A DNA stretch of 28,084 nucleotides from a virus. Shown here piece by piece: positions 6,850 to 23,003 of this stretch. The notes beneath the pieces are model-generated. The model saw nothing but the letters and a program-made list of their open reading frames with translations. It was not told the origin of the DNA and searched no databases. The position numbers and the translations under genes are program-made. The stretch spans positions 1 through 28,084 of the IMG/VR virus record IMGVR_UViG_3300010885_091161. The stretch is one strand, 5' to 3'. Numbering within the stretch: the stretch's first letter is position 1; each line of letters opens with the position of its first letter.

Positions 6850-8028
6850 CTATAAGATTTCAGAAATATAATCATTCACCAGATGGCTGCGGAAAGTTAT
6901 ATGTTCCGCCGGATATGGTGGAGTGAATTCGAAATCAAAATACACTTTGCCTTGCGATATATTAGCAGGGGTGTTAAGTTCAGGGTCGGCATAGGCTTTG
7001 CCTCCAAGAATAGCACCAAGGGCTTTTAAAGTGGCAAGGTAGGCATTAATACCTTCAAGCACATCTTCGATATATGTTTTGGTAATATTCCTGTCTACCG
7101 CCCACAAATGCGCGCGCAGCAAACTATCATTTATAATATCAGCAGTACGCCTTACAGAAAGGAATGCCCATTTAGGATCGGAAGAACAGGTGCGGCTACC
7201 CCACAGCCTGTAACCATCCTGCCTGATAATAGTTGCCACCTCATGTTCATTAAGATAATTGGCGCGGGCATTAGTATCACCAAGTGCAAAATCAACTGGC
7301 CTTGCAGTGCCGGTAATACCATTTATATTTTGATTGGATGGCGACCACCAGAAGCCGAGGTCATTATCTATTTTTGCAATAAGACCTGCTACACGCGCAC
7401 TGGCATGTTCTATAACTTCTGCATTAGTATCAGGATCAAATACTTTAACGGCAGGATCAATAACATATACACGCGCGCTACCCCAATCCTCGCGGTAGGT
7501 AATAGCGTCAGCATCATTGGTATTTGGCCCATCGGCGATAATTACCGCTTTTAACCTTTCAGCAATACCAAGCAATTCAGCAACCACAGCATTAGCACTG
7601 GTGCCGCTACGTTGGTGGGTGAAACCAGGCGCTATCAGTATTCGTGGGGAAACATGCACTATACTTTCAGCACCAAGGAATGCCTGTACACCTTTATAGG
7701 CACCAGTATCCTCATCAACACCGCCGATAATATTTGCAATTGTAGCAGCCTCATCTGCGCCAGCTACTATACGAACTACAACAACCATAGCGCCAGCTTG
7801 GTCAAAGATGGCATCAATGGCAGATGGTAAAGTTCCGGTGGCGCCAAGTTTAGCAGCATCGGTACGATTTCCGGCAATCAGCACGGGCTGATTAACAGGA
7901 AAAAGTGTGGCATCGGCTCCTGGCGCTGTACCAATCAAACCAATTATGGATGATTTTACGGTCTGTATTGGCCGCGCGCCTGTATCTATTTGTACGACTT
8001 CTACGCCATGAAGAAATTGTTCTGGCAT
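6850..8028 (-). CDS. FI: tail sheath protein (P2 gpFI family)
   Basis: This protein of about 392 residues forms the contractile sheath. Conserved segments are FLHGVEVVQIDTGARPIQTVKSSIIGLIGTAPGAD near the start, REDWGSARVYVIDPAVK, PSNQNINGITGTARPVDF, LNEHEVATIIRQDGYRLWGSRTCSSDPKWAFLSVRRTADII (the sheath core) and the C-terminal GKVYFDFEFTPPYPAEHITFRSHLVNDY. I prefer the start MPEQFLHG at 8028 because GGGGG lies about 8 bases before it. An upstream in-frame ATG at 8043 sits inside a hairpin and has no such site. Two overlapping hairpins upstream suggest a separate transcript boundary here, as in the P2 F operon. Confidence 0.96.
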   Translation of the reverse strand: MPEQFLHGVEVVQIDTGARPIQTVKSSIIGLIGTAPGADATLFPVNQPVLIAGNRTDAAKLGATGTLPSAIDAIFDQAGAMVVVVRIVAGADEAATIANIIGGVDEDTGAYKGVQAFLGAESIVHVSPRILIAPGFTHQRSGTSANAVVAELLGIAERLKAVIIADGPNTNDADAITYREDWGSARVYVIDPAVKVFDPDTNAEVIEHASARVAGLIAKIDNDLGFWWSPSNQNINGITGTARPVDFALGDTNARANYLNEHEVATIIRQDGYRLWGSRTCSSDPKWAFLSVRRTADIINDSLLRAHLWAVDRNITKTYIEDVLEGINAYLATLKALGAILGGKAYADPELNTPANISQGKVYFDFEFTPPYPAEHITFRSHLVNDYISEIL

Positions 8029-8037
8029 TATTTTAAC

Positions 8038-8059
8038 CCCCATTTACATTTAAATGGGG
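8038..8059 (-). promoter_or_regulatory. hairpin directly upstream of the sheath start
   Basis: CCCCATTTA (8038-8046) pairs with TAAATGGGG (8051-8059) around a 4-base loop. The stem holds the G-run that would be the Shine-Dalgarno of the sheath gene starting at 8028, so folding could hide it. It shares bases 8057-8059 with the larger hairpin at 8057-8100, so the two structures are mutually exclusive. Confidence 0.55.
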
Positions 8060-8106: not shown

Positions 8107-8637
8107 TTACCAACCAGCATTAACATCATAAGTGTCAATAGCAGTAACTGTAGTCAGTGCATCAATTTCCTGGTGTTTGGTGCTTTCTGTCATGTAAGCA
8201 TTTTGTTGTGAGGTGAAAAATGCATTAAACAATTCCTGGAATTGGGCTTGTGTCAAAATCACATGGTTATTATCAATGTCGAGCCAGAAATCATCGGTTT
8301 TAGTGCCTGAATTGAAAGATAATAACATGGCAGTGAGGTTGCTCCTCGCAACCTGGCCTGCATTATATGTATTGCCACCATAAGTAACATTAGCATACTG
8401 CTTTACATTTCTTATAACTTCCAGCTCAGAAAATTTACGTTGTTTTGCGTTTGGCAATGCACTAGCTGCAGCGGCTGCAACACGAGCATTGTAATCAGAA
8501 AGGTCAGCACCAGTAAGTGGGTAGATTCCGTGGCCTGGAAGTTCATTGCCTTCTTCATCAAGACGCGGAAATTGTGCGGTATCCATTCCGCAAGGTGTAT
8601 TTTCAGGCACAGTTGTACCATCATGTATTATAGGCAT
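8107..8637 (-). CDS. tail fibre accessory/assembly protein (DUF4376-like C-terminus)
   Basis: A 176-residue protein. Residues 1-43 (IIHDGTTVPENTPCG...PRLDEEGNELPGHGIYPLTG) match the N-terminus of the 69-residue protein at 13092-13301. The rest, with KQRKFSELEVIRNVKQYANVTYGGNTYNAGQVARSNLTAML, then FWLDIDNNHVILTQAQFQELFNAFFTSQQ, resembles the DUF4376 domain found in fibre-assembly and fibre-associated proteins. It comes right after the last fibre gene and before the sheath hairpins. GGAGAA precedes the start by about 6 bases. A chaperone role for the fibres is inferred from domain and position. Confidence 0.75.
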   Translation of the reverse strand: MPIIHDGTTVPENTPCGMDTAQFPRLDEEGNELPGHGIYPLTGADLSDYNARVAAAAASALPNAKQRKFSELEVIRNVKQYANVTYGGNTYNAGQVARSNLTAMLLSFNSGTKTDDFWLDIDNNHVILTQAQFQELFNAFFTSQQNAYMTESTKHQEIDALTTVTAIDTYDVNAGW

Positions 8638-8685: not shown

Positions 8686-9402
8686 TTAAGAAACTCCATA
8701 GAGTTTGAATGTTCCGTTAAACGTGCCAGAAGGAGGGGCTATCTTTATATTATTAATAGGGCCAGTAGATATACTGCCACCTCCACTTACGAGAAATGCA
8801 AAATCATTATATTCCATCATGAATGTAGGCGTACTAACCCCTGGCGTAGTAATATCGAAAAGATTTATAGTGCCACTGGCAGGAGAGCTTGCGGAGTTAG
8901 AGAAGTTTCCTGATTGGACAGTAATATCAATTTTTGAGTCGTTAGAAATACCCGTTCCGTTTATCGTTCCAGATCCAGGATTTTGCCATTGTCCGGCCCA
9001 TGTATAACCTGAAGTAGAATATGAAGCGCCATTATTATTTGAAGTAGTTAAATATAAATAATTTGCTGGTGGTATCGTACCATAAACCCCAGAGTACATA
9101 ATAATATAATGCTTGTATGCGGTTGTAAGATATGTACTGCTAAAAGAAATAGAAGTAGAGCCACTTGCAATTTGTGTTTGCAGCAACACCAACCCACCAC
9201 CCAAACCTGAAGGTAGATTGAGAAGCTGGCTTGCATCAAGCGCAGGTAGTTTGGCTGCATTGTCTAGTTGCACAAACTGGTTTGCACTTGTTCCTGAATT
9301 TATAATTGAGGCTGGAAGTTTATTGCCAGCACCAATAATCGGTATTTGCCCCTGCAAAATACCGGTATCAAGTAAATCATTATCTATTGTAGGAAATGGC
9401 AT
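8686..9402 (-). CDS. tail fibre protein, short stalk with type-A head
   Basis: This 238-residue protein is the fifth of five fibre paralogues. Residues 1-70 form a short N-terminal part with the common fibre repeat LPALDASQLLNLP. From residue 71 begins the type-A head: VLLQTQIASGSTSISFSSTYLTTAYKHYII, ending INNIKIAPPSGTFNGTFKLYGV. The same head type occurs in the genes at 9414-10082 and 13649-15094, while the middle of the head is diverged, as expected for a receptor-binding surface. AGGAG lies 8 bases before the ATG. It does not carry the long N-terminal region of three other paralogues, so it may attach differently. Confidence 0.82.
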   Translation of the reverse strand: MPFPTIDNDLLDTGILQGQIPIIGAGNKLPASIINSGTSANQFVQLDNAAKLPALDASQLLNLPSGLGGGLVLLQTQIASGSTSISFSSTYLTTAYKHYIIMYSGVYGTIPPANYLYLTTSNNNGASYSTSGYTWAGQWQNPGSGTINGTGISNDSKIDITVQSGNFSNSASSPASGTINLFDITTPGVSTPTFMMEYNDFAFLVSGGGSISTGPINNIKIAPPSGTFNGTFKLYGVS

Positions 9403-9413
9403 GGGTTGTACTC

Positions 9414-10082
9414 CTATTGGATTCCATAAAGTTTGAATATTCCAGTGGCTATATTGCCTGCGCTGAAGGAAAATTTAATATTGTTGATTGGGTTGTTTGT
9501 GCCTTTGTATGCGGCAGCCATTGAATAAAATTGCACTGTTCCAGCGCTATCTTCTATTGTTGCGTTAATAAAAAATCTTTTATTTAATGTAGTGCCGCCA
9601 GGATTATACAAAGCAATTGAAGCACAAGCAGACTCACCAGGAGCGTTACCTGACTGATTGCCTTGACCTGTTATATTTATAAATGCTTGATTTGTTTGAC
9701 CCTGTCCTGATAAAGAGCCACCAGAAGCTATGTGAGCGCCTTGGAATTCATAATCACTGCCACCAGTTTTATAATTGGCGCCGTTATCTTCTGATACAAT
9801 CATCCGTAATGTTTGTACGTCTATTTCAGGAACTATATCTATCAATTCAATTATATATTTCTTATAAGCACTGGTAAGATACGTGCTACCGAATGTTACT
9901 GATGCAACCAAGCTGGCAACTTGTGTTTGCAGCAGAACCATCCCACCACCTAAAGCCGCAGGGAAATTAACTAACTGGCTGGCATCAAGAGCTGGCAGTT
10001 TTGCTGTGTCATCTAGCTTGATAAGCTGGTTTGCGCCGCTACCAATATTCAGCAAATTATTATTAACTTTTGGAAATGGCAT
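9414..10082 (-). CDS. tail fibre protein, short stalk with type-A head
   Basis: A 222-residue fibre paralogue. It starts MPFPKVNNNLLNIG like the next gene (MPFPTIDNDLL), contains KLPALDASQLVNFP, then the type-A head from residue 48 (VLLQTQVASLVASVTFGSTYLTSAYKKYIIELIDIVPEIDVQT) to INNIKFSFSAGNIATGIFKLYGI. The head opening is very close to that of the long fibre at 13649-15094 (KYIIELIDVVP), so heads and stalks are combined differently. AGGAGG is placed before the ATG. An intrinsic terminator lies just upstream, so this and the next gene could need readthrough or their own promoter. Confidence 0.82.
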   Translation of the reverse strand: MPFPKVNNNLLNIGSGANQLIKLDDTAKLPALDASQLVNFPAALGGGMVLLQTQVASLVASVTFGSTYLTSAYKKYIIELIDIVPEIDVQTLRMIVSEDNGANYKTGGSDYEFQGAHIASGGSLSGQGQTNQAFINITGQGNQSGNAPGESACASIALYNPGGTTLNKRFFINATIEDSAGTVQFYSMAAAYKGTNNPINNIKFSFSAGNIATGIFKLYGIQ

Positions 10083-10102
10083 TTTATGCCTCCTGGTATT
10101 AG

Positions 10103-10135
10103 AAAAACAAAAAAGGGCTGTGATGAGCAGCCCTT
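10103..10135 (-). terminator. intrinsic terminator after the third long fibre
   Basis: Minus strand: AAGGGCTG, 7-base loop, CAGCCCTT, then a T-rich run (TTTTTGTTTTT). The stem is at 10113-10120 with 10128-10135, the T-tract at 10103-10114. It is followed 20 bases later by the next fibre gene. Its stem sequence closely resembles that at 13045-13071. Confidence 0.88.
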
Positions 10136-10165
10136 ACATTTTTACGAATAAAATTATGGGTGGTT

Positions 10166-11587
10166 TTATTTCAGGCCATAAATATCAATGTTGCCTGCGC
10201 TCATATTTATGCCTTCATAAAATATCCGCAGCCCTTTTAGGGATGAGGGAGAAACATAAAGTCCTGCCGATTGTGAATTTCCTGTCTGGCCACCATCATT
10301 CGTTTCATTGCCAAATGACAGGAAAATTGCCCGTGAACCAACACCAGAAGGATTTATGACAACTGTATAAAAATCACTCCAGTGGTAGTTACCTGACCAT
10401 ATTGGCACTAGAAACATAGAGCTGGCATGTTGGTTAACTGTGTGATCTCCATTATTAGGTGAAGAATGTGTAGAAGAATTATAATCACCACTTCCTGTCT
10501 GGTACGCAGTGCCAACTTTCACCTGGCAGCAAAGATGTCCCCAGCCTGCGCTTTGGGTAACTGGCCTTATGCCTGACCCAAAAATCATCAGGTGCTTGTA
10601 AGTGCCATCAAACATACTTGCGTTTTCAATATCAAGCTGCACTATGGAACTTGATATTGTATATCGTGCAATAAAATTCATAGCACCATGGGCAACCGTT
10701 GTTTCCTCTAACACGCCGGTGCTGCTATTAAATTTTAGAAACTTACCAGCCGTACCATTTGCCATTTTTGCAAGGGTGACAGCATTATTTGCCAGCTTAA
10801 TAGTGCTGATAGTATTATCAGCTACGCTTGCTGTAATATCCGTTTCCTCAATAACGCCGGTGCTGGTATTATATTTCAGGTATTTACCTGGTGTGCCATT
10901 GGCAATTTTTGCTAGTGTAATTGCCCTGTCATTTATTTTTGCCGTGGTTATACTTCCATCCGGTAAAGAGGCGTTGCTGCCCAAATGATAAACCGCAATT
11001 GCATTAGCGATTGTTATGGGTGGTGCATCGGTAAATGTAAGAATTGTTCCTAATATTGAATATAACGCAGGGTCAATAGTAACGCCGCTTACGGTTACAA
11101 TCACAGCATTGGAGTTGATGGGAGCCTGCGACAAAGTAAACTGTGTTGCAGTGCCATTGCCTGTAAAGCGGTTTATCGCACTACTTACAGGTACTGTGTC
11201 ACCACCGCCTCCGCCACTGCCAACAGGCGCGGTAATAATTTCAAAACCATTCCCATTACTGTTTACAGCAATTACCTTTCCAACCAAGCTGAGAAGGTTA
11301 GCTGGTAATGTAGATAATGCACTTAATATTGCCGTGGCAGGAAGTGCAGCAAGTTGTTCCTGTTGCGTTTCTGGCAAGCCACCAGCCGCATTGCCGCTTG
11401 TTCCAAGGATATTTTTATTTTTCAAAAAAGCAATCGTTGGGATGGAAGCGTCAAGAGGCGCGGTAACATCTGCAATTTTTATCAAGCCTTCGGTACTTAC
11501 ACTTGCATTACCAATTGCATTTATAGCATTTGATAATTGCAATATATCAGCCGCAGCAGCATTTAATACGTCTTCTGGTGTTGGCAT
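10166..11587 (-). CDS. tail fibre protein, long stalk with type-B head
   Basis: This 473-residue fibre paralogue shares its first 300 residues with the genes at 11604 and 13649. The N-terminal domain includes FLKNKNILGTSGNAAGGLP, then a Gly-rich linker (122-130). A beta-rich domain follows at about 139-203 (NRFTGNGTATQFTLSQAP...TVSGVTIDPALYS...LTFTDAPP). After that come two repeats of about 47 residues (212-299, core TLAKIANGTPGKYLKYN and TLAKMANGTAGKFLKFN). From residue 303 begins the type-B head (MNFIARYTISSS, DIENASMFDGTYKHLMIFGSGI), ending NIDIYGLK. GGAG is upstream. It probably mediates host recognition; the receptor is unknown. Confidence 0.88.
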   Translation of the reverse strand: MPTPEDVLNAAAADILQLSNAINAIGNASVSTEGLIKIADVTAPLDASIPTIAFLKNKNILGTSGNAAGGLPETQQEQLAALPATAILSALSTLPANLLSLVGKVIAVNSNGNGFEIITAPVGSGGGGGDTVPVSSAINRFTGNGTATQFTLSQAPINSNAVIVTVSGVTIDPALYSILGTILTFTDAPPITIANAIAVYHLGSNASLPDGSITTAKINDRAITLAKIANGTPGKYLKYNTSTGVIEETDITASVADNTISTIKLANNAVTLAKMANGTAGKFLKFNSSTGVLEETTVAHGAMNFIARYTISSSIVQLDIENASMFDGTYKHLMIFGSGIRPVTQSAGWGHLCCQVKVGTAYQTGSGDYNSSTHSSPNNGDHTVNQHASSMFLVPIWSGNYHWSDFYTVVINPSGVGSRAIFLSFGNETNDGGQTGNSQSAGLYVSPSSLKGLRIFYEGINMSAGNIDIYGLK

Positions 11588-11603
11588 GGAAAAACTCCAA
11601 GAA

Positions 11604-13025
11604 TTATTTTAAACCGTAGCAATCAATATAACCGCCACCAAGATTTGTGCTTGCAAAGAAGAACCGTAATCCCTGCAAAGGCAAAGTATTAACAGGTTCA
11701 TACAAACCTGTTGCTGTTGAGTTACCTGTTTGCGCACTATTATTAGTCTGGTTTCCTACTGTCATGAAAACTGGCCGTGGTAGTGCTGTGGCATTGGGAT
11801 TAGTTACGGTAGTAACAAAGTCCATAGTCGATGTTGAACCACTCCATTGCGGAACTACAAGTATTGCACTATTATCCTGGTACACATTATGCCCGCCATT
11901 ATTCGGTGCGTCATGTCCTGAAGACCTGTAGCTACCATCTGCACGGTAAGTTCCTGCGGTTTTTATCCTGCAGTAAAAGTGTCCTGTAGCTGTGGGTGAT
12001 GGTGGTATTATCCCAGAACCGATAATCATCAATTGTTTATATGTACCGTCAAATAGGGAGGCGTTCTCAATATCAATCTGCGCTACAGAACTTGAAATCG
12101 TATAACGTGCAATAAAACTCATGCTGCCAAGTTGTGTGGCTATATCAGTTTCCTCAATAACGCCGGTAGTAGTATTGTATTTTAAATATTTTCCAGGCGT
12201 ACCATTTGCCATTTTTGCAAAGGTGACAGCATTATTTATAAGTTTAACAGTGCTGATACTGTTATCGGCAGCCGTTGCTACCACATCAGTTTCTTCTATA
12301 ACTCCGGTACTACTGTTGAATTTTAAATATTTGCCTGGTGTGCCATTAGCGATTTTTGGCAAAGTAACAGCCCTATCAGCAATTTTTAAGGTTACGATAC
12401 TGCTATCCGCAATCGCTGCCACAGCGCCTAAGTGACGTACTATTATTGCGTTGGTAATTGTAGTTGGTGGTGTAGCGGTAAATGTAAGTATGTTGCCGGA
12501 TACAGAATACAAGGAGGGGTCTATGGTAACACCGCTAACCGTTACTATCACAGCATTGGAATTAGCTGGTGACTGTGACAGAGTAAATTGAGTGGCGGTA
12601 TTATTTCCGGTGAAGCGGTCAACAACAATGCTTACGGACAGTGTATTGCTGCCACCGCCAGAAGGCGCAATTATTACATCATAACCATTGCCATTAGCAT
12701 TTACCGCAATAATCCTGCCTGCAAGTCCTGCAAGGCTTTGTGGAAGTGATGATAAAGCTGTCAGGATTTCCGGTGCAGGCAAGGCGTTAATCTGCGTCTG
12801 CTGGTTCTGCGGCAGACCACCAGCCGCATTGCCAGTTGCCCCAAGAATATTTTTGCTTTTAAGAAATGCAACAGTTGGAACAGAGGCATCGGCAGGTGTT
12901 GTAGTATCGGCCACCTTTACAAGTCCTGCACTGACTGTACTTGCGCTTCCGATTTGCGTAACATCACCCGCAAGCTGTGCTATCTCCGCAGAAATATCAC
13001 CTAAAATATCTTCTATTGTAGCCAT
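11604..13025 (-). CDS. tail fibre protein, long stalk with type-B head
   Basis: A fibre paralogue of 473 residues, using the start MATIEDIL at 13025 (GGAGAG 4 bases upstream). An upstream in-frame ATG at 13040 abuts a terminator T-run and has no ribosome site. The N-terminal domain, linker, RFTGNNTATQFTLSQSP domain and two ~47-residue repeats (TLPKIANGTPGKYLKFN, TFAKMANGTPGKYLKYN) match the other long fibres. The head from residue 302 is type B (MSFIARYTISSSVAQIDIENASLFDGTYKQLMIIGSGI), with conserved PNNGGHNVYQ and a GNxTNxxxQTGNS segment, ending YIDCYGLK. Its head is diverged in the middle from that of the next gene. Confidence 0.88.
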   Translation of the reverse strand: MATIEDILGDISAEIAQLAGDVTQIGSASTVSAGLVKVADTTTPADASVPTVAFLKSKNILGATGNAAGGLPQNQQTQINALPAPEILTALSSLPQSLAGLAGRIIAVNANGNGYDVIIAPSGGGSNTLSVSIVVDRFTGNNTATQFTLSQSPANSNAVIVTVSGVTIDPSLYSVSGNILTFTATPPTTITNAIIVRHLGAVAAIADSSIVTLKIADRAVTLPKIANGTPGKYLKFNSSTGVIEETDVVATAADNSISTVKLINNAVTFAKMANGTPGKYLKYNTTTGVIEETDIATQLGSMSFIARYTISSSVAQIDIENASLFDGTYKQLMIIGSGIIPPSPTATGHFYCRIKTAGTYRADGSYRSSGHDAPNNGGHNVYQDNSAILVVPQWSGSTSTMDFVTTVTNPNATALPRPVFMTVGNQTNNSAQTGNSTATGLYEPVNTLPLQGLRFFFASTNLGGGYIDCYGLK

Positions 13026-13044
13026 ATCACTCTCCGGCATTCAC

Positions 13045-13071
13045 AAAAAAAGGGCTGCAAAAAGCAGCCCT
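13045..13071 (-). terminator. intrinsic terminator before the second long fibre
   Basis: Minus strand: AGGGCTGC, loop of five T, GCAGCCCT followed by a run of T (13045-13051). It lies 20 bases after the stop of the small accessory gene and 20 bases before the start of the next fibre gene. Form and stem (AGGGCTG/CAGCCCT) are nearly the same as in the terminator at 10103-10135. Confidence 0.9.
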
Positions 13072-13091
13072 CATATTAAAAAATTAGATTA

Positions 13092-13301
13092 TTATTGCTC
13101 AGGTGGAGGTGGTGGGTCTTCACCTTCGTTTTCATTATCATTCTGCTCTGCAAGGTATGCAGCCAGTTCATCACCTACCAGCTTGTAATAACCATGTCCT
13201 GGTAGTGGTACGCCAGAAGTATCATAGCGTGGATATTGCTCAGGTTTATAACTACAGATGGTTTCGTTTGACACTGTTGTGCCATCATGGATAATTTTCA
13301 T
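13092..13301 (-). CDS. short fibre-associated protein sharing an N-terminus with the fibre accessory gene
   Basis: A 69-residue protein starting MKIIHDGTTV at 13301, with AGGAG 5 bases upstream (a GTG two codons earlier is less likely). The first 42 residues match the N-terminus of the protein at 8107-8637: IIHDGTTV..., Q-x-PR-x-D, then PGHGYYKLVGDELAAY. It lacks the DUF4376-like part and instead ends in an acidic, proline-rich tail (NENEGEDPPPPPEQ). It ends just before an intrinsic terminator. It could be a truncated copy of a fibre accessory protein or a distinct small partner. The function is unknown. Confidence 0.7.
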   Translation of the reverse strand: MKIIHDGTTVSNETICSYKPEQYPRYDTSGVPLPGHGYYKLVGDELAAYLAEQNDNENEGEDPPPPPEQ

Positions 13302-13338
13302 ACACACTCCTGTTGATTGGAAATTTGGGGCAGTTCTG

Positions 13339-13647
13339 TTATGGCTTTGGAATATTTTGTTTTACTATGGCTATATGGGTGTTCCAGACATCAATTCCGT
13401 CATGGTGAATCATATCAAACTGTTCCCCTGGTGTACCGTAGCCACCTTCAGCAAGGGAAGCAGTGCGTTTGCGGTAACAATCCTGCAACTCCCTTTCCGG
13501 AGCTTTAGATTGCCACTGTGCTTCACTAGCTGCAATTTCTGCATGGTCTACATCGGTAAGTAAATAATGCACACCGTCTATGGTTTTAACAGGGGTATCA
13601 AACGATACCTCAACTTCAACACCATTGTTATCTATTACTTTTTTCAT
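13339..13647 (-). CDS. probable fibre/tail accessory protein with YGTPGEQFDMIHHDG motif
   Basis: A protein of about 102 residues. The start MKKVIDNNG at 13647 is chosen because GGAG lies about 8 bases upstream, and the fibre stop is one base before. The C-terminal half (YRKRTASLAEGGYGTPGEQFDMIHHDGIDVWNTHIAIVKQNIPKP) matches a motif seen in many phage proteins encoded beside fibre genes (Y-x2-R...YG/PS-x-x-Q-x-D-M-x-x-DG-x-x-W-x-x-x-I-x-x-VK-x-x-PKP). Its molecular role is not established. Position directly after the first long fibre suggests assembly or attachment of that fibre. Confidence 0.7.
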   Translation of the reverse strand: MKKVIDNNGVEVEVSFDTPVKTIDGVHYLLTDVDHAEIAASEAQWQSKAPERELQDCYRKRTASLAEGGYGTPGEQFDMIHHDGIDVWNTHIAIVKQNIPKP

Positions 13648-13648
13648 A

Positions 13649-15094
13649 TTATAAGACTCCATAAAGTTTAAATTTGCCGGAAGTTATATTGCCAGTACCC
13701 ATTGCTAATTTGATATTGTTTATGGCTGTGGTGTTTGCATCGAATAGCCCTAATATGTGACATTGCTCAAGAAGATGAGAACTGTATTCAATTCCGCCAT
13801 CAAATGTAATTTTCTTGTGGTTTGTGGTTCCAAGAGGATTATAAACTGCAATAGTAGCGCAAAGCCCAGTGTTGGCAGTGTTCAATAATTGGGCATGACC
13901 TAAACTAAAACTGGCTTGTGAAGTTTGGGCATACCCGCTAACTGTAGGGGCTGGCACTGTAGCATTAGAAGTATAAACTGCGGAATAGTGGTACTCATTG
14001 TTGTTATAATAAGTATTTCCGTTATCGGATGAAAAATACATTTGTATAGTAATACTGTTAGTAGCAGGGACTACATCAATAAGTTCAATAATGTATTTAG
14101 TATAAGTCGAAGTTAGGTATGTACTGCTAAAAACAATAGAAGCGGAACCACTTGCAATTTGTGTATTCAATAATACTAATGCGTCAGTTACATTTGTTAC
14201 ATCAGCCTCCTCAATAACTCCAGTACTGCTATTAAATTTGAGGAACTTTCCAGGTGTACCATCAGCAATCTTTGCCAGCGTAACATTTTTATTTATGAGC
14301 TTAATAGTGCCGATACTGTTGTCTAGCACCGTTGCTACAACATCGGCTTCTTCGATCACGCCAGTGGTGGCATTGAACTTAAGATACTTACCAGGAGTAC
14401 CATCAGCCATTTTTGCAAGGGTGACAGCTTTATTTATAAGCTTTATTGTCGCAATACTATTATCAGCAAGTGCCGCTACTGTTCCAAGATGGCGGACTAC
14501 TATGCCGCTGGTTTCTGTAGTAGGTGGGGCATCGGTGAAAGTAAGGATATTACCCGCTATTGTATATATGGCGGGATCAACGCTTATGCCGCTTATCGTA
14601 ATATGCAGTGCGTTGGAATTTGCCGGAGACTGCGAAAGTGTAAATTGAGTAGCAGTATTATTACCTGTAAAGCGGTCTACAGCAACATTCACAGGCAAAG
14701 TTGTTGTGCCACCACCTCCGACACCGCCAGTAGGCGCCACAATCAATTCATAGCCACTGCCTGTAGTATTTACAGCGATAATTTTTCCTGCCAAGCCATT
14801 TAAGCTTACTGGCAATGTAGCAAGTGCAGCCAGCACTTGTGCAGGCGGCAAAGCATTTACCTTATCAAGCTGTGTCTGTGGCAAGCCGCCACCAGCTTCG
14901 CCGCTTTCCCCAAGGATATTTCTATCTTTCAGGAATGCAACAGTTGGTATGGAATTATTATCAGGTGTGGTGCCATCAGAAATTTTTACCAGGCCAGCCT
15001 TTATTGCAGTGGCATTTCCTATCTGGGAAAGGTCACTGGCTATCTGTGATACCTCACTCGTAATATCACTTAATGTTTCTTCTAAAGTTGGCAT
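13649..15094 (-). CDS. tail fibre protein, long stalk with type-A head
   Basis: This first fibre paralogue of the array has 481 residues. Residues 1-300 are shared with the two other long fibres: FLKDRNILGESGEAGGGLP, a Gly-rich linker (123-129), the RFTGNNTATQFTLSQSP domain, and two repeats (TLAKMADGTPGKYLKFN, TLAKIADGTPGKFLKFN, each followed by TGVIEEADV). From residue 306 it changes to a type-A head (VLLNTQIASGSASIVFSSTYLTSTYTKYIIELIDVVP, ending INNIKLAMGTGNITSGKFKLYGV), otherwise found in the two short fibres. It is thus a natural combination of stalk type 1 and head type A. GGGAG is about 10 bases before the ATG. Confidence 0.88.
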   Translation of the reverse strand: MPTLEETLSDITSEVSQIASDLSQIGNATAIKAGLVKISDGTTPDNNSIPTVAFLKDRNILGESGEAGGGLPQTQLDKVNALPPAQVLAALATLPVSLNGLAGKIIAVNTTGSGYELIVAPTGGVGGGGTTTLPVNVAVDRFTGNNTATQFTLSQSPANSNALHITISGISVDPAIYTIAGNILTFTDAPPTTETSGIVVRHLGTVAALADNSIATIKLINKAVTLAKMADGTPGKYLKFNATTGVIEEADVVATVLDNSIGTIKLINKNVTLAKIADGTPGKFLKFNSSTGVIEEADVTNVTDALVLLNTQIASGSASIVFSSTYLTSTYTKYIIELIDVVPATNSITIQMYFSSDNGNTYYNNNEYHYSAVYTSNATVPAPTVSGYAQTSQASFSLGHAQLLNTANTGLCATIAVYNPLGTTNHKKITFDGGIEYSSHLLEQCHILGLFDANTTAINNIKLAMGTGNITSGKFKLYGVL

Positions 15095-15096
15095 AT

Positions 15097-15606
15097 CTAT
15101 AACACTCCCACATTTCTAAGGTGATTGCTGATTATCACTCGGCTGTTCCTGATATTGGCCAAAGCCTGCTGGGATAAAGGTTTCAGCAGCGACAGATTGT
15201 TATTTATTTCTGCATCGATAGTGACTGAGCCAGGGGGAAAGGCTGCAAAGTGCAGCAACAATTCTAAAGGCACACGCTGGTTAGCTGGCTTCCACTGTAT
15301 TGCATTTACGTCTGCGGCAACTGCCAGCAGAACATCTGTGCCATTGTGGTTTGCAATCACACCAATTTCATGGATAAAGAATTCTGCTGCACCTTCTGCA
15401 AAAGCCGAAACTTTATGAATGTTGTTTTCTATTGCCTGCGCACCAAGAACAGGAGTCCTGATTCTCTCGCTCATTAAAGCAATGGCATTTTCGTCAGGTG
15501 TCCACGATCCATCACCAAGCGCAATATGCGTTACCTGCACGGTGCCGCCATTGGCAACCGCATCAGCTACTGCTGCCATGCCAGCAATCGTTGCTACTGT
15601 TTGCAT
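15097..15606 (-). CDS. tail fibre N-terminal attachment protein (P2 gpH N-terminal domain)
   Basis: A 169-residue protein corresponding to the N-terminal domain of P2-type fibre protein H. It contains AAVADAVANGGTVQVTHIALGDGSWTPDENAIAL, SERIRTPV, AEFFIHEIGVI and LLAVAADVN. In P2 this domain fixes the fibre to the baseplate at gpI. Here it ends after the domain, without stalk or head, so the long fibres that follow may be attached to it non-covalently. It starts at 15606, overlapping the tail end of the I gene region, and lies between I and the first fibre as H does in P2. Confidence 0.88.
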   Translation of the reverse strand: MQTVATIAGMAAVADAVANGGTVQVTHIALGDGSWTPDENAIALMSERIRTPVLGAQAIENNIHKVSAFAEGAAEFFIHEIGVIANHNGTDVLLAVAADVNAIQWKPANQRVPLELLLHFAAFPPGSVTIDAEINNNLSLLKPLSQQALANIRNSRVIISNHLRNVGVL

Positions 15607-16683
15607 TTAAAACTCCAGTGATAAATTTATTCTCGGAATGACAGGCACAGAGCCGAGTATTCCGGCACCTGCATCTGTAATATTCGTGTAAGGTGTTAAT
15701 TCAATTTCGCTTAAAGCACGGATAGCAGGCACAGCTTCATAGCCAGCACCCGTGTCAGTATTTGCTTTGCTGGTATATGGTTTAAGCTCAATACTCTCTG
15801 CAGTCCTTCCGGTTACATGAGAGCTATAGCAACCACCAACTTCTGAGCCTGATTTATTGGCATAAGGAATAATTTCATTTACATGCTCCGCGCGCGCTGC
15901 TACATGCGAATCATATAAACCGCCTGCAGTAGAATTTGCGTGGCTGGTATATGGTATAAGCTCAACGCTTTCTGCAGCCCTTCCGGTTACATGAGAACTA
16001 TAGCCGCCGCCAACTTCCGAGCCAGCTTTACTGGTATAAGGTATAATTTCATTTACATGACTAGCGCGCGCAGGAACCAGGGAATCATATTTACCCCCAG
16101 CCACAGAATTTGACCGGCTTGGGTAAGGCACAATTTCAGTTGTATTATTTGCCCTTGAAGTAACATGACCATCAAATGCTGCGCCAACATCAGAAGGAAG
16201 TTTGCTGCCAAACATCAATTCAAAATGCGCGCGTACCGGCTTTACATTTGTAACAGAGCTTTTTAAATCTGAATAAGCCTGTGGCAGGAGTTTGGTTTTA
16301 TCCTCGCTATCCTTGTTATAGTTTGACCAGGCAGTGACAGTAAAAGTGTGCGGTATTGCATTATTCTGAAACCACTCCAGCAACTCCACATCTATATCAA
16401 GCGCGGCTATTGCTTTCTTTACCGCGCCAACCGTACCTTTCTTGCGGTGTACATCTACGGAAGCTGCAATGACCTGGCGTTTTACATTATCTGGCCATGC
16501 ATTATCCCATGTGTCTACTGACAGCGCCCATGCAAGATAAGGCAATATTTTTGCTGGTATGGTTTGTGGATTCCATAATTTACCAATTGGTAAATCTATT
16601 GCCTCAATCCTTGTTTTTCCTGCCGCTGCCTCTATATCCTTTTCCAAGGAAGATGCATTAGGTGGCAGGATAGTATCAGACAT
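15607..16683 (-). CDS. I: baseplate protein I (P2 gpI family) with repeat-bearing C-terminal extension
   Basis: Residues 1-165 are a complete gpI-like domain (LLPPNASSLEKDIEAA; LWNPQTIPAKILPYLAWALSVDTWDNAWPDNVKRQVI; HRKKGTVGAVKKAIAAL; RAHFELMF), close to the whole length of P2 gpI. Residues 173-345 are an addition of six repeats of 29 residues (the last 28), each with RA...EIxPYTS and a GG/GxGY turn. The ATG overlaps the end of J by eight bases. gpI is a baseplate component that carries the fibres in P2. The extension could offer extra binding surface for fibres, but that is inference. Confidence 0.92.
   Translation of the reverse strand: MSDTILPPNASSLEKDIEAAAGKTRIEAIDLPIGKLWNPQTIPAKILPYLAWALSVDTWDNAWPDNVKRQVIAASVDVHRKKGTVGAVKKAIAALDIDVELLEWFQNNAIPHTFTVTAWSNYNKDSEDKTKLLPQAYSDLKSSVTNVKPVRAHFELMFGSKLPSDVGAAFDGHVTSRANNTTEIVPYPSRSNSVAGGKYDSLVPARASHVNEIIPYTSKAGSEVGGGYSSHVTGRAAESVELIPYTSHANSTAGGLYDSHVAARAEHVNEIIPYANKSGSEVGGCYSSHVTGRTAESIELKPYTSKANTDTGAGYEAVPAIRALSEIELTPYTNITDAGAGILGSVPVIPRINLSLEF
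15649..16167 (-). repeat. six 29-residue tandem repeats at the end of gpI
   Basis: Repeats begin at residues 173, 202, 231, 260, 289 and 318. Two subtypes alternate: one with SRANN/GRAAES...EL and one with ARAxHVNEII, giving a higher-order unit of 58 residues (174 bases). At DNA level, neighbouring copies of the same subtype are nearly the same (for example GTTACATGAGARCTATAG). Confidence 0.85.
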
Positions 16684-17918: not shown

Positions 17919-17947
17919 TTGGCTTCTGATAAAAGTTTGTTTATGTT
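17919..17947 (+). promoter_or_regulatory. putative promoter of the HU-like gene
   Basis: TTGGCT (17919-17924), 17-base spacer, TATGTT (17942-17947), 44 bases before the HU-like ATG. It lies in the 77-base gap between the divergent gp25 gene and the HU-like gene. It fits a sigma-70 promoter moderately well; untested. Confidence 0.5.
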
Positions 17948-17990
17948 CCTACTATTAGTAGAAATAGAAATTATATTTAGGAGAAGTCCC

Positions 17991-18263
17991 ATGAATAAAT
18001 CTGAACTTGTTGAAGCGCTTGCTAAAGCAACAAAACTAACCAAAGTTGATGTTGCAAATGTTCTTGATGCTTTTGTTGAAACCAGCAAAAAAGAACTTAA
18101 GAAAGGTGGCGAGATAAATCTCGTTGGTTTCTTAAGCCTTAAAAAAGTTAAACGTGCAGCACGTACTGGCCGTAACCCACGCACCGGCAAAGAACTTAAA
18201 ATTGCTGCTAAAAATGTTGTTAAAGCTAAAATTGGCAAAACTTTACAAGATGCTGTGAAATAA
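17991..18263 (+). CDS. divergent HU/IHF-family DNA-binding protein, opposite strand
   Basis: This 90-residue histone-like protein is expected to dimerise and bend DNA. It starts MNKSELVEALAKATKL at 17991 with AGGAGA 6 bases before. The helical half (residues 1-40) and the beta-arm signature GRNPRTGKELKI (60-71) are intact. Other conserved positions differ: the usual VGFGxF reads VGFLSL (45-50), and the usual P-x-F-x-x-G reads V-K-A-K-I-G (77-82). It is the only plus-strand gene of the window, with its own promoter and ribosome site. Its TAA abuts the stop of the PAAR gene with no base between. It looks like an independently transcribed accessory gene (moron). Possible roles are helping packaging at cos, as IHF does in lambda, or lysogenic expression. 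Confidence 0.93.
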   Translation: MNKSELVEALAKATKLTKVDVANVLDAFVETSKKELKKGGEINLVGFLSLKKVKRAARTGRNPRTGKELKIAAKNVVKAKIGKTLQDAVK

Positions 18264-18560: not shown

Positions 18561-19082
18561 TTAAGAATTATTGAGTATTACTTTCTTCTGTTTTTTAAAT
18601 TCCGCTTCTGTAAGATTACCTTCTTCTTTTAACTTTACCAGACGCTCCAGTTGCGTGACTGTATCATTTTGTGCGGCATCTGCCTTATTATCTGCATTTT
18701 CCTTGGCTTTATTTACAGCATCAATAAAGGGCTTCACTACACTTTTAACAATGTTATTAACGCATATTGATCCTGCGCTGCTGGCAAGTATAATTTCACC
18801 TGTCAGGAATCCTATTTTCTGTGCAATAGACGATATATCTTTTAGCGGCATTTCTTTGTGAGAGGAGGTTTTGTATAATATCAGAATTCGTTTATTAGTG
18901 CATAATGCTATACAAAAATCCCCCTGTAAAATATTCCTCTTCCAAACGCCTCGCGCTACTGACAATATGCTTTCATTTTCTCCCAAAAGGTCGGGTAAGA
19001 AATTGATTTCTTTTTGCGCAAAAATAGATTTGTCCTTAGTTAAGGACTCTATCTGTTTCTTTATTTGTTCAAGTGTCTGCAT
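18561..19082 (-). CDS. PH-like domain protein with C-terminal SHOCT domain (accessory gene)
   Basis: A 173-residue protein with no structural role in P2-like tails. Residues 1-30 are a helical lead. Residues 36-120 resemble a bacterial PH domain (LLGENESILSVARGVW...LQGDFCIALCTNKRILILYK...EMPLKDISSIAQKIGFLTGEIIL). An alanine-rich charged linker (122-140) leads to a SHOCT domain (144-170: LERLVKLKEEGNLTEAEFKKQKKVIL). Such two-domain proteins are common in bacteria and prophages, and their function is mostly unknown. It has its own near-consensus promoter just upstream and so may be expressed in the lysogen as a moron. A membrane or superinfection role is only a guess. Confidence 0.85.
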   Translation of the reverse strand: MQTLEQIKKQIESLTKDKSIFAQKEINFLPDLLGENESILSVARGVWKRNILQGDFCIALCTNKRILILYKTSSHKEMPLKDISSIAQKIGFLTGEIILASSAGSICVNNIVKSVVKPFIDAVNKAKENADNKADAAQNDTVTQLERLVKLKEEGNLTEAEFKKQKKVILNNS

Positions 19083-20805: not shown

Positions 20806-21119
20806 GCTGGTATTACCACACCTTTTACATCCCAGCTATTACGCTCAAGATTGCGTAATGGTTCGCCATAAACCTGATACAAGGTTGCACCAATAGTGAT
20901 AGTATCATTGGGTAGAGGCCGCGCCACATCCAGGACACGCAGCTCAAACTTTGCAGTTTCACCGACCATGACAGCATCACCTGCCTGATACTCAATATCG
21001 GCTGCAAATTTCAGCACCCTGATATTTACCGGAGGCAGCCCGACACCTGAGTAGACAGCATCTACACCAAGATGTTTCAGGCAATCATCCATTGCTATTG
21101 CTAATATTTCTCTGCTCAT
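20802..21119 (-). CDS. head-tail joining protein (lambda gpFII-like)
   Basis: A 105-residue protein beginning MSREILAIAMDDCLKHLGVDAVYSG, with a beta-rich C-terminal part (KFELRVLDVARPLPNDTITIGATLYQVYGEPLRNLERNSWDVKGVVI). The size, the ATLYQV...P...W end and the position straight after the major capsid fit the phage attachment/head-tail joining family. It lies 3 bases downstream of the capsid gene and overlaps the next one by 4 bases. Confidence 0.78.
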   Translation of the reverse strand: MSREILAIAMDDCLKHLGVDAVYSGVGLPPVNIRVLKFAADIEYQAGDAVMVGETAKFELRVLDVARPLPNDTITIGATLYQVYGEPLRNLERNSWDVKGVVIPA

Positions 21120-21122
21120 AAA

Positions 21123-22133
21123 TTATGTAACAGTTACTTTTACAAGCACAGAAGGACGATGGCACATTGGCAGTGGGTTAGACTGCGTATGTATATCAGT
21201 GCCACGCTCAAATTTACGTGATTCCTGTTTTACATAAATAGGCTGGCCGAGTGTATTGGCAGTTTCGTTAAAATCTGCCGGTGCAAAATATGTGCGGAAG
21301 GTCTGCTGCGTACCAACAGGGAAAGCATGGCCTTCATTTGCTGCTATAAACCTTCTTACGTTGCCATCACTATCACTTGCCTCAGCAGAATATTCCTTAA
21401 AGATAAGACCACCAAATGGAAAGCCATCACGCATATCATCACGCAATGCCGCACCCTGGTTCCATAGTGCATATGCATCTTTTACAGTAGCGTGGGAAGT
21501 AAGTGCATCAAAAAATTCAGGGCTGACAAGAACCTGAACCCCACTCATAACTTCGCCCATGAGGTTCTTTTCAATATAGCGTTTTACATCAATACACTTT
21601 TTCTTAACGTCAGTTGTGGCTGTGCCAAGAGCAAAGCTTATAACTTTTGCAGTGATACCGAACTCCTGGTATAAATCCAGAAGCGTTGAACCATCAGCAT
21701 CAAGGATCACGCCTTTTAAAGCGCCCATACGCAAATACTCTAAAGTAATCGCATGTTTATTACGCATTGATTGCAAATGGTCAGTGATGATATCGGATAA
21801 TACCTGTAACTGGTTGTTTGAACCAAATGCCCGTATGCCTTGCACTTCTTCTGGTAGCACCACATCATCATGAGGGATATGCGGAACACTGAATCCACGA
21901 AGTTTTCTTTTGCCGTGCCTACCGACAGTGCCAGGACTTCCTGGTGCTTTGGTAGGAAGCAGGTTAAGCACACCATTATTTTCCTCAAGGGAAATCTGGC
22001 GTGTACGAACTGGCTGCGGACGAAACAAGCCCATCTGCTCTAATAAACCATAATTATTTGGTAAAATATTTATGGCCTGGGTTAACTCAGCCATATTAAA
22101 GGCTGGATCATCAAAAGGGTTACTCATAGGCAT
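21123..22133 (-). CDS. E: major capsid protein E (lambda gpE family)
   Basis: A 336-residue HK97-fold capsid protein. It begins FDDPAFNMAELTQAINILPNNYGLLEQMGLFRPQPVRTRQISLEENNGVLNLLPT and contains KRKLRGFSVPHIPHDDVVLPEEVQGIRAFGS, MRNKHAITLEYLRMGALKGVILDADGSTLLDLYQEFG and FPVGTQQTFRTYFAPADFNETANTLGQPIYVKQ, all typical of the lambda E family. The length agrees with lambda E (341). GGAG lies about 9 bases before the first ATG; a second in-frame ATG two codons on is possible. It follows decoration protein D as in lambda. Confidence 0.96.
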   Translation of the reverse strand: MPMSNPFDDPAFNMAELTQAINILPNNYGLLEQMGLFRPQPVRTRQISLEENNGVLNLLPTKAPGSPGTVGRHGKRKLRGFSVPHIPHDDVVLPEEVQGIRAFGSNNQLQVLSDIITDHLQSMRNKHAITLEYLRMGALKGVILDADGSTLLDLYQEFGITAKVISFALGTATTDVKKKCIDVKRYIEKNLMGEVMSGVQVLVSPEFFDALTSHATVKDAYALWNQGAALRDDMRDGFPFGGLIFKEYSAEASDSDGNVRRFIAANEGHAFPVGTQQTFRTYFAPADFNETANTLGQPIYVKQESRKFERGTDIHTQSNPLPMCHRPSVLVKVTVT

Positions 22134-22193
22134 GGCAAAATACTCCGTATAAACAGATTAAAAATATTTGGTAATGGATTTGAAAATTATTAA

Positions 22194-22568
22194 TTAAGCG
22201 TCTTTGCGAAGCAGGATTCCCAAAGCTTTAAGTTGGGCTATGGCTGTATTCATCTGGGTTGTAGTAGTACCAGCAGGCCAGATAACAGAGTTTGTAGCAA
22301 CAATGGCGTGACGTGCTATCATCCAGCTTCTTTTAGCTGCAGTCGATGCATTAACATCGTCAGCAATAATGCCAACGGCAATGTCATTGCCAGTTCCACC
22401 ACCTGAGTTAAGCGTAACAATATTGCTGTTTGAGTTAAGGCGACCAACCACAGTAGCAAAGGCGATATTCTGCCCGCTGTTAACCATTATTTCTCCGCGT
22501 GAAAACAGGTTATCTTCTTCAAACTTTAGAAGATCACCAAGGTTTTGTGATTCTGTAAGTGATGGCAT
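22194..22568 (-). CDS. head decoration protein D (lambda gpD family)
   Basis: A 124-residue protein that stabilises the expanded capsid. The family pattern is seen: SLTESQNLGDLLKFEEDNLFSRGEIMVNSGQNIAFATVVGRLN, then GNDIAVGIIADDVNASTAAKRSWMIARHAIVATNSVIWPAG and LKALGILLRKDA at the end. AGGAGG precedes the start. It lies between the S49 protease and the major capsid, the order of lambda C-D-E. Confidence 0.95.
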   Translation of the reverse strand: MPSLTESQNLGDLLKFEEDNLFSRGEIMVNSGQNIAFATVVGRLNSNSNIVTLNSGGGTGNDIAVGIIADDVNASTAAKRSWMIARHAIVATNSVIWPAGTTTTQMNTAIAQLKALGILLRKDA

Positions 22569-22613
22569 AAAATGCCTCCTGAATTTAGATGTTAGAAAAT
22601 AATAAAACTAAGA

Positions 22614-23003
22614 TTATGCTGATTTTGCTCTGGCTTTTGCGGCGGCAACTACAGGACTATCTGCTTGTTTTTCAGCAGCAGGTGGCAATGCATCTACGTT
22701 CGAACGGATATCACCTTTGCCATACTGGTTATGGGCTACAAGAATTTGCATAAGCTCATCCTTTGCAGATTGTACACCGACATTTTTCTCTACAAAGCCT
22801 GCCAGCTTTTCTGGCATGTCTGCCATCTTACATGTTTTGGCAAGCTCCATAACTTCCGCACGGTATGCTTCCCGCCCACGGGCTTCGGCTTCTTTTAGAA
22901 TTTCTGCCATATCCACATTGAGTGGCTGGATTTGTCTTTTAGGTGCCGAATCTGCACTTGCTTCCGTAGTTGGGTTTTGCACTTCTGCGTCAATTTTAGT
23001 CAT
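22614..23003 (-). CDS. possible nested scaffold protein (Nu3-like) inside the protease gene
   Basis: An in-frame ATG at 23003 (Met280, in KTMTKIDAEV) opens a 129-residue C-terminal product with the composition of a scaffold: low-complexity start, helical MAEILKEAEARGREAYRAEVMELAKTCK, and a variable end. In lambda, scaffold Nu3 is made from an internal start within gene C. The ribosome site here is weak (AGCGAGC 5 bases upstream), so an internal start is possible but not proven. Confidence 0.4.
   Translation of the reverse strand: MTKIDAEVQNPTTEASADSAPKRQIQPLNVDMAEILKEAEARGREAYRAEVMELAKTCKMADMPEKLAGFVEKNVGVQSAKDELMQILVAHNQYGKGDIRSNVDALPPAAEKQADSPVVAAAKARAKSA

Follow-up and report, generated by a model that had tools for sequence, protein, structure and literature searches.

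A five-gene array of paralogous tail fibres with exchanged stalk and head modules in a contractile-tailed phage

Five fibre genes between collar and sheath

The 28,084-bp virus record IMGVR_UViG_3300010885_091161, which we call the window and to which all coordinates refer unless another record is named, encodes an array of five intact tail fibre genes on the minus strand, bounded by a collar gene on one side and by DUF4376 and sheath genes on the other. The fibres combine a long (L) or short (S) stalk with a C-terminal head, for which we distinguish subtypes A, B, X, Y and Z in the window and its relatives. F1 (13649-15094) joins a long stalk (14198-15094) to a head A (13649-14179) that matches phrog_14820 with an E-value of 4e-16. 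F2 (11604-13025) and F3 (10166-11587) each join a long stalk (12132-13025 and 10691-11587) to a head B (11604-12122 and 10166-10681), and the head of F2 shares 62-70% identity with B heads from four relatives. F4 (9414-10082) and F5 (8686-9402) have a short MPFP stalk followed by a head A (9414-9941 and 8686-9192). Every fibre gene has its own start codon and a Shine-Dalgarno-like leader, and the array has the gene content of a multi-receptor-binding-protein locus: a number of paralogous fibre genes, all intact, whose C-terminal heads vary. An earlier reading of this DNA, the original prediction, had described the same five open reading frames with the same start sites and the same head and stalk limits, and we confirm its observation of a five-gene fibre array with recombined stalks and heads. 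It had placed the genes in a row; they do share one strand, but two small genes, chap1 and C1, separate F1 from F2.

The five genes are clearly paralogous. Long-stalk pairs are 59-65% identical over about 297 amino acids, and BLASTP relates F2 to F3 (E=0), F1 to F2 (E=9e-143) and F4 to F5 (E=8e-44), as well as the head of F1 to those of F4 (E=5e-36) and F5 (E=5e-17 to 1e-16). The A heads are 34-41% identical, with conserved ends (50-80%) and a variable middle (12-36%), and the two B heads are 53% identical. The head of F4 matches phrog_14820 (E=1.6e-23), as do the short-stalk heads of the relatives L027 and L079; that of F5 has no match in PHROGs, yet is 40% identical to the head of F4. Head A has many viral relatives; a search of the annotated phage collection with head B returned nothing. 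Stalks differ in length among relatives, with between one and three GTPGK repeats, and the RFTGN domain is missing from L031. Since searches with the short-stalk motif LPAxDxSxLTNLP return at least 500 unrelated environmental phages, we regard this motif as generic.

The proposal of two head types holds in that heads are homologous within each type, but A and B are not unrelated: profile-profile comparison joins them with 94.5% probability (E 8e-8). Given this match, and that the predicted structures of both resemble the same beta-sandwich proteins, heads A and B are, as modelled, two divergent subfamilies of one beta-sandwich domain family. The AlphaFold model is good for head A (predicted local distance difference test score, pLDDT, of 90 for the head of F4) and weak for head B (pLDDT 66). 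Both models match galectin and GH32-C-terminal-like beta-sandwiches with Z-scores of 7-8.5 and root-mean-square deviations of 3-4 Å, a level that is common for beta-sandwiches; the predicted fold fits carbohydrate binding and is no proof of it.

The borders of the array are conserved. Upstream lies the collar gene (15097-15606, minus strand), which encodes a short Phage_tail_fib protein, the N-terminal domain of a tail-collar fibre with neither stalk nor head (Pfam PF12571, E=2.5e-9; PHROG 3737, tail fiber), that is 85-91% identical across five relatives. Downstream, D12 (8107-8637, minus strand) encodes a DUF4376 tail fibre assembly or tail protein (PF14301, E=8e-12; 57-78% identical in relatives) and is followed by the tail sheath gene (6850-8043, minus strand), whose product is up to 93% identical in the syntenic relatives.

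Exchange of stalks and heads among related arrays

Syntenic relatives share the collar and sheath borders and carry one to five fibres with at least five head subtypes. In order, the array of L079 reads L+X, C1, L+B, S+Y, S+A; that of L027 L+X, C1, L+B and three S+A; that of L028 C1, L+Y, S+Z; and that of L031 only C1 and L+B. The incomplete array of L171 reads L+B, S+Y, S+Z, and the array of L260 is cut within the first long stalk. No relative is without a long-stalk fibre, and the short-stalk tips are accessory. Copy number therefore varies at a fixed locus. The original prediction had named unrelated heads within a type, or related phages with the same array unchanged, as grounds for abandoning it; instead, heads are homologous within types and the relatives' arrays differ in number and content.

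Scanning a genome collection with the long-stalk profile returned no relative, and with the sheath profile a single array-bearing fragment of a metagenome-assembled genome (MAG), L171; its MAG is labelled Gammaproteobacteria, and it is the sole cellular contig with such an array. The closest MAG sheath relatives (L107-L109) and L029 have no homologous fibres in the upstream sequence present. Four contigs (L016, L171, L260 and L261) break in or near the array, which might be taken for population variation; we draw no such conclusion, as chance alone would place about as many breaks there, given how much of the genome the array occupies.

Stalks and heads have different histories. The B heads form one clade, 52-90% identical among themselves and at most 27% identical to other heads, whereas a single clade for the long stalks of the B-headed proteins is rejected by the approximately unbiased (AU) test (p = 0.0004). 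The heads of L079b and L027b are 88% identical, but the stalk of L027b is closer to that of L027a (77%) than to that of L079b (67%); the test of this stalk pair is borderline (p = 0.0475), the pair having been chosen after the tree was seen. Head Y is carried by a short-stalk fibre of L079 and of L171 and by a long-stalk fibre of L028, and the match begins at the head border.

The clearest replacement separates L171 from L079, which are collinear with 84-92% DNA identity except over 389 bp of the last head. In a codon alignment, L171c resembles L079d up to about head residue 22, the head Z of L028 in the middle and, in the final 24 nt, once more L079d (96% versus 86%). The mapped crossovers thus fall within the conserved first ~22 and last ~8 residues of the head. 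The original prediction of a paralogue repertoire produced by duplication and by recombination of stalks and heads is borne out by the conflicting trees, this head swap and the two settings of head Y. Its further proposal, that recombination took place between shared repeats, survives only in part: junctions do lie where stalk and head meet, but the crossovers that were mapped are inside the head ends, and the donors seem to have been other phages, not neighbours in the array. Exchange is an evolutionary process, probably with other phages as partners.

F1 offers a further case, and one that involves chap1 and C1. Compared with L079a and L027a, F1 has 60-78% DNA identity along the stalk and 33-42% in the head. 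Directly after its head A lies chap1 (13339-13647, minus strand), a putative fibre chaperone gene (phrog_9114, function unknown), a homolog of which, 32% identical, directly follows a head A in the podovirus-like contig L017. The order of head and chaperone is the same there, and the end of the F1 head together with the start of chap1 is 87% identical to L017 over 46 bp. The L017 fibre begins with what we take to be a T7-type N-terminal sequence. C1 (13092-13301, minus strand) is a 69-amino-acid remnant of a tail fibre assembly protein and shares its N-terminal domain with the DUF4376 protein at 8107-8637; in L079 and L027 it is full-length (119 and 131 amino acids) and retains the C-terminal tail fibre assembly domain (phrog_4912). 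It is plausible that an ancestor of F1 carried a head X with C1 as its assembly factor, that it acquired a head A together with chap1, and that C1 afterwards lost its C-terminal part. C1 is also kept as a stand-alone domain of 68-74 amino acids (L028, 3029-3235; L031, 7815-8012) even where no fibre gene precedes it. Because it persists in such phages, the N-terminal domain may serve a separate function.

Selection, rival explanations and terminators

Between L171 and L079, the L+B part has a ratio of nonsynonymous to synonymous substitution (dN/dS) of 0.065, S+Y one of 0.036 and the last short stalk one of 0.045, similar to the flanking D12 (0.05) and sheath (0.05); for L+X between L027 and L079 the ratio is 0.063, with dS near saturation. 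Such values, 0.036-0.065 and like those of D12 and the sheath, indicate purifying selection, and they favour the use of all array genes over silent cassettes: each gene is probably in use.

Taking these observations together, we consider it likely that a contractile-tailed phage maintains these paralogous fibres side by side as alternative receptor-binding proteins, and that the exchange of modules renews the set on an evolutionary timescale. We infer that the fibres bind receptors and that several may be displayed by one phage population or virion. Each protein would form a homomeric fibre tipped by a lectin-like beta-sandwich head, the fold being predicted and carbohydrate binding presumed, and the stubby conserved collar protein at the upstream border probably docks the fibres. 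Heads would be swapped as modules, mostly with other community phages, and the breakpoints would lie where stalk meets head or inside the conserved strands at either end of the head; the adjacent chaperone would sometimes move along with the head, and gene number would shift through duplication, fusion and deletion. Several points weigh against this interpretation. It rests on sequence comparison and predicted structures, and lectin matches with Z-scores of about 7-8 can mean a shared arrangement only. The sample is small, five relatives and one MAG fragment with no cultured member. The AU test presumes an adequate alignment and model, and the dN/dS pairs are genes of relatives rather than F1-F5 of the window.

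A different arrangement, in which F1-F5 together make up a single composite or branched fibre complex, with long fibres, for instance, as a shaft and short ones as side branches or tips, would account for the long-first, short-last order and the conserved borders seen in all relatives, and Ackermannviridae do have branched complexes of paralogous tailspikes (PMC11414711). However, most parts are dispensable, as L031 has a single fibre (L+B) and L028 two; all heads belong to one fold family and all lie at the protein C-terminus; and neither Pfam nor PHROGs recognises anchoring domains like XD or TD, although an unrelated anchoring solution may exist. We therefore think a composite fibre unlikely.

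The suggestion that the array may still rearrange fares worse. An actively rearranging locus, in which homologous recombination or an invertase supplies one expressed fibre with heads from silent cassettes, would fit the shared modules and the tandem repeats, and phage Rad52-like recombinases tolerate divergence, having been shown to act on sequences that differ by ~12-17% (PMC3945230). The fibre genes of the window exceed this range: they differ by 25-35% (DNA identity about 65-75%), and the longest exact match between any two is 23 bp. Furthermore, the independent record L016 is 100% identical to the window over 9,890 bp, including all of F5 and most of F4, and the start codon and leader of every gene speak against silent cassettes. 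As originally predicted, no invertase and no inverted copies were found in the window, where all array genes lie on one strand; in the relatives' records the only match to a small serine recombinase (PF00239) is a 436-amino-acid frame far from the array. We accordingly rejected an invertase-switched fibre system of the kind represented by Mu Gin, P1 Cin and Min, there being no inverted gene copies and no invertase near any array. A target of a diversity-generating retroelement was also rejected, as no reverse transcriptase (PF00078) was found in the window or in the relatives' records, some of which are fragments, and no near-identical template and variable repeats occur within the array. Given that the longest match is so short, that divergence lies beyond the recombinase range, that L016 is identical, and that neither invertase nor reverse transcriptase was found, we consider ongoing switching unlikely, and a locus feeding one expressed fibre from silent cassettes very unlikely. 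Finally, ordinary descent, with ancient duplicates diverging without module exchange, would suit the mutual age of the five genes (stalks 59-65% identical) but is extremely unlikely, being refuted by the stalk/head incongruence, the single-head replacement between L171 and L079 and the association of head Y with long as well as short stalks, provided that the contigs of the relatives are not assembly chimaeras.

Two intrinsic terminators on the minus strand split the array into the blocks F1-chap1-C1, F2-F3 and F4-F5-D12. One lies between C1 and F2 (13072-13050) and stops about 25 nt short of the F2 start codon; the other, between F3 and F4 (10135-10113), stops about 31 nt short of that of F4. 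No other strict terminator occurs on the coding strand in the 28 kb (2 versus about 0.15 expected from Markov-resampled windows). Similar hairpins precede L+B in L027 and L031, L+Y in L028 and the first short fibre in L027, so that position is conserved in the window and these three relatives, though sequence not always; L079 and L171 have no such terminators inside the array. A promoter would not fit between the terminators and the next fibre start codon, and a promoter scan performed at chance level (31 found versus 31.5 expected). The terminators could be read-through attenuators that set the ratio of long to short fibres, such that single virions display defined mixtures of tips, but we hold this to be quite unlikely.

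The tail operon, known systems and significance

The array belongs to a P2-type contractile tail, with matches to Tail_P2_I (Pfam, E=2e-40), Phage_GPD and PhageMin_Tail, and the open reading frames of the window and relatives follow the order baseplate W-J-I, fibre, sheath, tube, tape measure and U/X/D. The head module of the window is lambda-type (GpA terminase, Phage_portal_2 and S49 protease). The S49 protease is nearest to that of Wolbachia phage WO, and the sheath is 66-70% identical to those of many contractile phages, including 67% to the Wolbachia phage WO sheath. Three other features of the operon were observed. An HU-family DNA-binding protein (17919-18263, plus strand; PF00216, E=5e-29) is encoded on the opposite strand within the late tail genes and resembles an inserted extra gene; a bacterial PH-domain protein (bPH_3, 18561-19082) sits between the V and PAAR genes; and the baseplate protein of gene I (15607-16683) has a C-terminal repeat run at 15757-16104, with a 174-nt DNA repeat 80% identical, that is shortened in relatives such as L031.

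Mosaicism of P2/Mu-type tail fibre genes is reportedly described by Haggard-Ljungquist and colleagues (1992; cited in PMC3945230). In P2 a single fibre gene, H, is paired with a single assembly gene, G; Mu and P1 switch two fibre sets by an invertase. The window resembles this type in that its fibre genes follow gene I of a P2-type baseplate operon and are exchanged between unrelated phages; it differs from the single H and G of P2, and from Mu and P1 in that no invertase was found for its array. The Pelagibacter phages HTVC010P (21026-22984) and HTVC019P (35604-37439) likewise carry three tandem proteins of ~200 amino acids that end in a head-A-type domain (29-31% identity for matched copies), with a longer fibre bearing a similar stalk module nearby. 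However, these are podovirus genomes with other short stalks and three similar heads only, and they have no series of long stalks with head B, no collar and no chaperone. Their tandem proteins (L253, 5902-7860; L254, 4950-6785) are annotated as hypothetical and are probably receptor-binding tips.

In the multi-tailspike clusters of Ackermannviridae (TSP1-4), exchange by recombination in a conserved part has been shown experimentally (PMC11414711). These clusters also hold several paralogous receptor-binding proteins per locus with conserved N-terminal and exchangeable C-terminal parts (PMC11414711), but the tailspikes are large, enzymatic and branched via XD/TD domains, whereas the window encodes small fibres without recognised enzyme or XD/TD domains. 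In Alteromonas phages A5 and V22, a fibre head region and the adjacent chaperone are common to morphologically different phages (PMC10579305), much as the F1 head and chap1 recur in the podovirus-like L017; in contrast, those phages have one fibre each, and their chaperone appears to be of a different family.

Multiple receptor-binding proteins per phage, C-terminal exchange and the transfer of fibre and chaperone between unrelated phages are therefore already established, and the general picture of phage fibre evolution is unchanged; the array is an unusually compact and variable example of this known strategy. The novelty lies in how its features come together: a P2-type tail locus with two stalk classes and at least five head subtypes that share one fold, in one to five copies at a fixed site, with terminators that separate its blocks and with crossovers that map within the conserved ends of the head. 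These crossovers show why the ends of the heads are conserved and the middles variable. The arrays form a natural series, from one to five fibres within fixed borders, in which receptor-binding modules visibly swap, fuse and drop out, and which makes it testable whether a virion carries several fibres and whether their ratio is set by the terminators.

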